Below are positions 2,450 through 5,400 of a stretch of 64,000 nucleotides of DNA, piece after piece. A model generated the notes under the pieces. It made no database searches and had not been told where the DNA came from. It worked only from the letters and a program-made list of their open reading frames with translations. This DNA is from Gigantopelta aegis (lineage: Eukaryota > Mollusca > Gastropoda > Neomphalida > Peltospiridae), in contig NC_054702.1 in assembly GCF_016097555.1 (NCBI RefSeq), positions 70,795,695-70,859,694 of the forward strand. The letters run 5' to 3'. Made by a program: the position numbers and the translations under genes. Position 1 is the first letter of the stretch, and each line of letters opens with the position of its first letter.

Positions 2450-5400
2450 GTAATATTTTACATGCCATGATGTAACATAGTTACATAGTATATAGCCCGA
2501 GTACTCTGACTGTAAGAGAGCAAGACGGACATTTGGACATAAACACGCTCTCATTACAGTCAGAGACCAACCTATGTCTTTTTTTGGCAATTCCTGACTA
2601 CCAAACGTTTGGCAACAGTCCCGCTCTAATACCACAACAATCCTATGTTTGACGTCAAATACCTTTACATCAATCATTTTCGAGTTAAGTGATACAAAAA
2701 AAATCCACATATTAACCACTAATACACTTACTACAGAAAGAAACCCGACAGCACCCACATTCAGCTACGCTTCGTGACACTCCGTCGCAACAATTGCAAA
2801 GCTCGGCGATCTATTTCGAGACGTAGACCACGTGATCGCGCACTGGGCGATTCCGCCTTGTGCAGCAGTTACAGGGGCCGTCTCATATCAAGCGAAGTTA
2901 CAACATGGAAGAGTTGGCTAATGCCGTTTTGGATGAATTTGGATTTCATTACGTCATTAAACCAAAACAATTACACATTATTGATTCCATTTTGAATTTG
3001 AAGGATACATTTGGGGTGTTATCGATAGGATACGGCAAAAGTATGTGCTACGTACTGCCTCCTCTTATGAGATGACCCCTGTAACTGCTGCACAAGGCGG
3101 AATCGCCCAGTCTCGAAATAGATCGCCAAGCTTCGTAATTGTTGCGATGGAATGTCACGAAGCGTAGCTGAATGTGGGTGCTGTCGGGTTTCTTTCTGTA
3201 GTATGTGTATTAGTGATTAATATGTGGATTTTTTTGTATCACTTAACTCGAAAATGATTGATGTAAAGGTATTTGACGTCAAACATAGGATTGTTGTGGT
3301 ATTAGAGCGGGACTCGTTGCCTACCGTTTGGTAGTCAGGAATTGCCAAAAAAAGACATAGGTTGGTCTCTGACTGTAATGAGAGTGTGTTTATGTCCAAA
3401 TGTCCGTCTAGCTCTCTTACAGTCAGAGTACTCGGGCTACATAGTATAGTACGTGACGTGGCCCGAATCATTGGGTTGACACAATAAACATTACATTTTT
3501 TAACTGCGTAATGTGTAAGATTGCTAAAACACTTCCTTCTAAATGTAATAAAGCTGTAATAAGAATGATGATCCCTACGAATTACCACCCTGTTTTTGGT
3601 TTAATGCTAAATCTGACTAGTAAACTTCACATTTATCTTGGTCACTAACTAACTGCCTTGAAGGTAGGCCTATCAGGTCATTTCACCCTTATCCAGATTC
3701 ACCCTGAGTCGGTTCGTCCTCCAAACGGGTCGTTTCGCCCCTCCCCTCCATATATATATATTCAGGGCTCGACCTTAGTGGTGGCCCGAGGATTTTTGGC
3801 TACCAATTTCTTACTCGGACTACCAGTTATCTAACCCTCTGCCAGGCTACAATATGTTTTGGCATGTCCAGCCACTCCACAATCAACAAGACGTCGGTGT
3901 CTGAAATTCCACCCTTTCATGTGCACGCTCTACTGCCACGAGTTGCTGAATTGCTCCCCTAGTCTGGCGGTCTCGCAATAAGATTTAGTAAAACAAAGGA
4001 ATATATTTGCCAGTGGTAGGATATAACCGATTCACAAACTAAATAACATATGACATAAACCTACATACCGATTCATCTCTTGAAAAAATGATCTGCGATA
4101 CTGCACTTCTATTTCACCTGCTAGGTCTAAAAAATTGACTTTTTAATTTTTGCAGGCGGCTATTAATTTGGAGGTTTGTCGTGGCTAGCGGGAAGGATGC
4201 ACAAGCCGAGATTGCTGGGTTTGAATCCCAGCAGTTATATGTACATGTATACATTTGGCAAAAAAATGCCAATGCCAAAGGAAAGTCCTTTTGCATCTAG
4301 AGAATAGTTTATGCCCAGAACACTGAACAAATCATCACTTACACACATACATGTGTATAGTAACTTTTGTTTTTGTGTTTTTTTACTTAGTACTGCTAGT
4401 AGTGATGCACGAGAGTATGCTTTGAAGCAGATTGAAGGTACAGGAATCTCTATGTCAGCATGTAGAGAAATTGCAGTGAGTATTTACTATAACAGGAGAA
4501 GACATTGTTAATCATAAGAATGAATTGTACTCTGGGTTGATGTGCACAGTGGTTGTGGAATTTAAAATGAATACTATTTAATTATGTCATTTAAAGGCAC
4601 ATCCTTTCAGTTGTCAGTAATGGTTATAATTTTTTAAGTACATGTTTTATTGATACATATATAAATTTGTCAAAGATCTTTTATATGCATATATACATGT
4701 ATGTACATGTAATATGCTTAGTTTGATAAATTTTCTTTTTTTGACTGGTTACTTGGATCTTGTTCTATCAGTACGTACATTTGAATATGTATTTGCAGTT
4801 GCTCCGTGAGTTAAAACATTCAAATGTAATCAGCCTGCAGAAAGTCTTCTTGTCACATACAGACCGAAAAGTGTGGCTGCTGTTTGATTACTCCGAACAT
4901 GATTTGTGGGTAAGACCATTTCTTCATCTGTTACAAGGTGTTGTACATCAGGGAACATTTTGTTGAGTATCACAATTCACTACACAGATTTCAGAGATCA
5001 CTACACAATACTAAAACATCATATTTCACATTAATTTTGAAAGGTGGCTGGACGTAGCCAGGGCTAGCTCTGGCAATCGCCAATAGCGAATTTTTAAAAC
5101 TTTTATTTTGAGTTGGCGAAATAATTGTACTACATTTTATTAGGAAATAACTGGTTTTCTGTCATTTTTGAAGTTTTATAGATAATTTGGCGAAATTTTG
5201 TGTTCATCCAGAGCTACATTGTAGCCCTGGTAGCCCATGTAAAAAAATCCCTTGCTACTAATGGAAAAATGTAGTAGGTTTCCTCTCTAAAACTATATGT
5301 CAAAATTACTAAATATTTGACATCCAATAGCTGATGATTAAATAAATCAATGTGCTCTAGTGGTGTCATAAAACAAAACAAACTTTTCATTTTCAAAGGT

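Follow-up and report, generated by a model that had tools for sequence, protein, structure and literature searches.

The closest described counterparts of the locus analysed here are DNA transposons of several kinds. One is the AcademH lineage of the Academ superfamily, which reportedly occurs in animals and fungi, going by the title that Kojima gave to a 2020 article (Mob DNA 11:15). In the available part of PMC10045372, target-site duplications (TSDs) of 9 or 10 bp are given for AcademH and of 3 or 4 bp for AcademX, and the two are tied to a helicase and a nuclease respectively. Among molluscs, Academ is almost exclusive to bivalves in the available part of a bivalve survey (PMC10294476). 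Mutator-like elements (MULEs) are marked by long terminal inverted repeats (TIRs) and TSDs of 8-11 bp (PMC6446971), Mutator/Foldback elements such as Tm1 also have 9-bp TSDs and long complex arms (PMC3169594), and KolobokH encodes a RecQ helicase (PMC9587614), these three statements again coming from sources that were available in part. In a 64-kb stretch of gastropod DNA, which we call the window, an original prediction had described a 947-bp element with long inverted arms (about 380 bp), a perfect 9-bp duplication and a RecQ-like start, and had interpreted it as a Pack-MULE, that is, a Mutator-like element whose arms had come to enclose the beginning of a RecQ gene of the host. The description was borne out by our analyses; the interpretation was not. 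We consider with good confidence that the element is amplified and non-autonomous and that it derives, by internal deletion, from a DNA transposon with two genes, which was most likely of the AcademH type.

The element spans positions 2493-3439 of the window, its ends are TAGCCCGAG...CTCGGGCTA, and it is flanked by CATAGTATA on the left (2484-2492) and on the right (3440-3448), the two copies being identical at 9/9 positions. Of 200,000 placements drawn at random within the window, 26 gave a perfect 9-bp match at this spacing. The left TIR (2493-2887, 395 bp, plus strand) corresponds to a repeat of 423 bp, helicase ATG included, in a 5.5-kb copy of the family, L021, and the right TIR occupies 3066-3439 (374 bp) on the minus strand. 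Aligned with each other over 396 columns, the arms are identical in 360 and mismatched in 13, and a single gap of 21 accounts for most of the 23 columns with a gap; comparison with the left arm and with L021 indicated that the right arm is without a 21-bp stretch found in the left arm, and that the inner end of the parental repeat is also missing from it. At ≤3 mismatches the 20-mer end matched twice in the window, against a shuffle mean of 0.00, and subterminal inverted 12-mers are present inside the arms. Arms and duplications alone do not distinguish a MULE from an AcademH element, because MULEs too have long TIRs and TSDs in this range, and it is the genes that discriminate between them.

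Between the arms we found a frame of 56 residues on the plus strand (2905-3072), closed by a stop codon at 3073-3075, just inside the right arm. We interpret 2905-3075 as the beginning of exon 1 of a RecQ-like helicase gene that belongs to the element itself. The best structure match of the frame was the N-terminus of RecQ (PDB 4tmu, E 1.7e-5), followed by 1oyw and WRN, and Pfam DEAD matched it at E 4.2e-4, which is below the family cut-off. A protein-database search with the X-padded frame gave 10 candidates, none of them at E ≤ 0.01. In viral contigs the TIR 20-mer had no exact match, and none of the 15 stretches found there with the frame was confirmed. That the fragment is the start of a gene favours the Pack-MULE reading, as do the long TIRs and the duplication, both of them MULE marks, and the prediction had also taken the coincidence of the frame's end with the right arm as a sign of capture.

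A genome search with the 56 residues scored 150 of 705 candidates; the window was recovered at 100%, and the remaining listed loci reached 98% over residues 1-56. We took the 30 best-scoring of the 150 loci, among which the window itself (L054) is included in all counts. The other 29 have STGYGKS where the window copy has SIGYGKS, and their frame reads ...PPLMRR, with the second R encoded by CGA at the position that is a stop codon in the window. Among the eight readable hand-chosen deletion copies (L010-L017), the junction codon was CGA in five, a stop in two (L011, L014) and shifted in one (L015). Because the stop is missing in most of the copies examined, the agreement between frame end and right arm does not hold throughout the family; in the window copy it arises from a deletion, described below, and from this stop.

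The search for other copies with the same ends, proposed along with the original prediction, was run on the 1.149-Gb host assembly. At ≤3 mismatches the 20-bp end gave 4,663 + 4,700 = 9,363 matches, compared with 7 + 4 for its reversed control in the same assembly. Both ends were found at 24 of the 30 frame loci, and the length was exactly 947 bp in 12 of these 24. The length of the duplication, which had also been proposed as a check, was clear: a 9-bp TSD was exact in 22 of the 24 two-ended loci and present with at most one mismatch in all of them, and a 10-bp TSD fitted none. The sequence of the TSD varies between copies and its length is 9 bp. We also considered a KolobokH-type element, which would likewise carry a RecQ helicase, and rejected it, given the 9-bp TSDs of varied sequence here versus the 4-bp TTAA of Kolobok; with KolobokH moreover reported only from fungi in the available part of PMC9587614, its probability is negligible.

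A second sample of 20 copies was chosen by hand among the pairs of ends located on one contig. An exact 9-bp TSD was present in 15 of them; as read by eye from the printed flanks, the TSD was one base off in L021, L022 and L026 and absent from L024 and L027. L027 and L028 are miniature elements of 115 bp with the same ends, and L028 does have a 9-bp duplication. The prediction was right that this is a DNA transposon, that its TIRs are long and its duplications 9 bp, and that it contains the beginning of a RecQ-like helicase gene. The 178-bp centre was found in at least 11 of the 20 among the matches listed, namely L009-L017 (781-948 bp) and L019 and L020 (2.2 kb). The prediction had named, as an observation that would speak against capture, a centre that is encoded by the transposon itself and found in every copy; the first part of this is what we found, as set out below, and the second is not, since at least 11 of the 20 copies have the centre among the matches listed and therefore it is not in every copy.

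Pairwise differences averaged 1.4% (0.2-2.9%) in a set of 24 copies between 930 and 960 bp long, with the window counted once, and were 0.6% in the frame versus 1.4 and 1.8% in the arms. The likeness among the 30 frame loci is partly an effect of how they were chosen, because they were ranked by frame score; in copies chosen without that score (the window and L009-L014; n=7), the figures were 1.2% for the frame versus 2.1%. We do not read the lower divergence of the frame as selection.

Longer relatives with the same ends contain parts of two genes. L021 is 5,545 bp long and has both ends, TIRs of 423 bp that are 99% identical, and flanks CTCTGGCAG/CTCTGACAG matching at 8/9 positions. Its minus strand carries several RecQ-like helicase exons, and its plus strand carries the exons of a second gene, read inward from the other TIR. 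Exon 1 of the helicase has the same N-terminal frame as the window, continues as far as MKDK and is followed by GTAAGT, likely a splice donor. Further pieces on the helicase strand contain stretches that look RecQ-like by eye (SPLTSLIKNQ, YDEEHC and TATAT); scanned separately against Pfam, the helicase-strand pieces of L021 gave no helicase match except for the piece that includes exon 1. The undeleted junction of exon 1 and intron had 61 + 47 = 108 matches in the genome at ≤2 mismatches. The helicase ATG is located inside the TIRs of L021, at their inner edge, a position that would fit a transcription start within the TIR.

A larger copy, L042, has the same right end, the one end found for it. 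On one strand it contains the exons of the second gene and then DUF6589 (E 1.1e-10 and 2.1e-9), with a PHD-like stretch on that strand just under the cut-off (E 1.6e-4); on the opposite strand it contains Helicase_C (E 8.2e-16), with RECQL4 and BLM as the best solved relatives. The DUF6589 pieces of L042 are on its minus strand, at 4787-4305, 3759-3436 and 2894-1680. The order and strand of the pieces suggest that those on each strand form one gene. A separate same-end element of about 2.59 kb (L051:4291-6881), with its own duplication GTGGTACCC, adjoins a copy designated C8 and contains the helicase start together with part of the second gene. In the C8 and C6 copies, which have a long DUF6589 frame, neither a left end nor a helicase exon 1 belonging to the copy itself was seen in the stretches examined. 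No copy was found that combines the two TIRs with complete versions of both genes; L021 is two-ended, but the exons that it has of the second gene are the N-terminal ones alone.

The comparison with L021 also suggested how the 947-bp form arose. In the breakpoint region of helicase exon 1, L021 reads CCTCT-TATGA-AAGATAAAGTAAGT, and at the inner TIR on the side of the second gene it has TTGA-TATGA-GACGGCCCC. The sequence in deletion copies is CCTCT-TATGA-GACGACCCC, and in the window it is TATGA-GATGACCCC, with TATGA at 3066-3070, where comparison with L021, L019 and L020 places the junction of helicase exon 1 and the TIR of the second-gene side. The deletion-type junction was present in 30/30 frame loci, identical in 28 and with one change in two, one of which is the window; the undeleted junction is present in L019-L021. 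TATGA is common to both breakpoints: the short form is an internal deletion at a 5-bp microhomology, the product of which was then amplified.

These results bear directly on the proposed capture of a host gene. Exon 1 in L021 runs into an intron and further helicase exons, undeleted junctions are numerous genome-wide, the longer same-end elements carry more helicase exons and a second gene, and in the short form exon 1 is joined to the opposite arm by internal deletion; for this reason we regard the helicase as the element's own. The Mutator-like assignment is most likely wrong as well, given that the second gene leads into DUF6589 and that no MULE family was found in 13 Pfam queries made from L021, L042 and L051. 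A literature search found no paper joining a Mutator-like element, a RecQ helicase and a transposon. We therefore consider a Pack-MULE very unlikely here, its arms, duplication and gene start notwithstanding, because the junction is an internal deletion and more of the same helicase gene lies between the same ends elsewhere.

DUF6589 is a Pfam family of unknown function that occurs in mollusc proteins, and it was not mentioned in the literature searched. A search with one exon of the second gene of L021 gave 13 matches, several of which are pieces of one locus. L041 (28%), one of the two most distant of these matches, is part of a 548-aa frame with DUF6589 at E 9.2e-13. The surroundings of L041 and L040 (10-kb stretches L049 and L050) contained no TAGCCCGAG end within 4 edits, and these distant DUF6589-type relatives in the same genome probably represent a second family. 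Searching with a 405-aa DUF6589 frame, we scored 103 candidates and obtained 50 matches: C8 and C6 matched at full length and are near identical, C15 matched in pieces, C14 matched partially, and the rest were partial or distant.

Residues D275 and D426 are nearly invariant in 22 DUF6589 relatives. The pattern around D275 matched 21/22 of them, the pattern around D426 matched 11/22, the count for GDGLSxE, and neither a third acidic residue in a pattern of the E[HFY]xN type nor a PHD-finger pattern was found in any of the 22. The AlphaFold model of the relative P0012, considered together with 21 relatives, had a mean pLDDT of 53, too poor to show a DDE fold. At the level of sequence, the conservation of D275 and D426 is suggestive of a DDE core, and we presume that the DUF6589/PHD-like gene encodes a DDE transposase. 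On balance we favour, with moderate confidence, the view that helicase-carrying elements of the Academ type have DUF6589 as their transposase, and that in a gastropod, where Academ was regarded as nearly absent, they have reached about 9,000 ends that can be recognised, mainly through deletion derivatives that can pass for Mutator-like when TIRs and TSDs alone are considered.

A helicase together with 9-bp duplications points to AcademH. We infer this most likely membership from the helicase and the TSD length as described in the literature, and not from a sequence match, since no one copy was found with both ends and the two genes complete. Alternatively, the element could belong to another superfamily, either an undescribed Mutator/Foldback-like group or a new lineage, in which a helicase acquired long ago has become native. 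The 9-bp TSDs and long complex arms of Tm1 and its kind, the subterminal inverted 12-mers in the arms of the window element and the fact that the tie between DUF6589 and Academ is our own suggestion are all compatible with this. However, one gene only was found next to the helicase, and it continues into DUF6589/PHD-like matches; it is AcademH that, in the available descriptions, pairs a helicase with TSDs of 9-10 bp. We thus regard such an origin as improbable, and prefer the AcademH-type parent.

A parent consistent with the ends, duplications, copy number, common junction and two-gene relatives that we observed would have two TIRs of about 420 bp, each leading into one gene, with the two genes facing each other. 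The first would be a multi-exon RecQ-like SF2 helicase with its ATG at the inner edge of its TIR, and the second the DUF6589/PHD-like gene, the presumed DDE transposase. Deletion at the TATGA microhomology would have joined helicase exon 1 to the TIR of the other gene, with the loss of nearly all of both genes. Having kept both ends, the remnant could presumably be mobilised in trans, with 9-bp target duplications, and one such insertion lies in the presumed first intron of a CDK8-like gene.

That setting was deduced from the surrounding exons. The element has a coding start, at about 2308, on one side and on the other an exon at 8541-8789 that looks kinase-like (Pkinase, E 2.5e-6, marginally below the Pfam cut-off). 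The 48-aa first coding piece gave no Pfam match, and we take the gene to be CDK8-like from its N-terminal residues; the insertion site is accordingly read as its first intron. A DHODH gene (819-2168, minus strand, E 1.4e-95) is arranged head to head with this plus-strand gene across a short gap. Leaving aside the record of the window itself and one protein at 83% identity, the named relatives that ranked highest come from gastropods (Babylonia, Patella, Pomacea, Nucella and Haliotis, 60-67%). Other mobile sequences are also present in the window. A Tc1/mariner-type transposase frame at 6992-7867 has HTH_Tnp_Tc3_2 and DDE_3, and a second, weaker DDE_3 piece at 45806-46150 is below the Pfam cut-off. 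A GC-rich retroelement occupies 16061-20645 (RVT_1, E 2.3e-23; RT_RNaseH, E 5.4e-6), and the frame at 20154 that follows it resembles by eye a DIRS-type tyrosine recombinase and had no Pfam match.

Our analysis removes a candidate for Pack-MULE gene capture in animals, and it indicates how a helicase-carrying transposon that has lost its interior by deletion can come to resemble such a capture. It also describes a family from a mollusc, with ends in the thousands and with pieces of two genes at the level of exons, and offers a testable link between DUF6589 and transposition. Transposons that carry a helicase are a kind already known; an abundant family in a gastropod would extend the range of Academ among molluscs, compared with the available part of PMC10294476.

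Compared with known systems, the family has long TIRs and 9-bp TSDs in common with Mutator-like elements, Pack-MULEs and the Mutator/Foldback element Tm1, but differs from Mutator-like elements and Pack-MULEs in that its helicase is native and not captured, with no MULE domain in the same-end pieces scanned. With KolobokH it shares a RecQ helicase inside a DNA transposon; TTAA TSDs and, in the available text, a record from fungi only set KolobokH apart (PMC9587614). It most resembles AcademH, both in a 9-bp TSD, within the 9-10 bp given for AcademH in the partly available source, and in an element-borne SF2/RecQ-like helicase, with exons in the two-ended L021 and Helicase_C in L042. The differences are that the window copy has lost nearly all coding sequence, and that the host is a gastropod and not a bivalve as in the available part of the Academ survey (PMC10294476).
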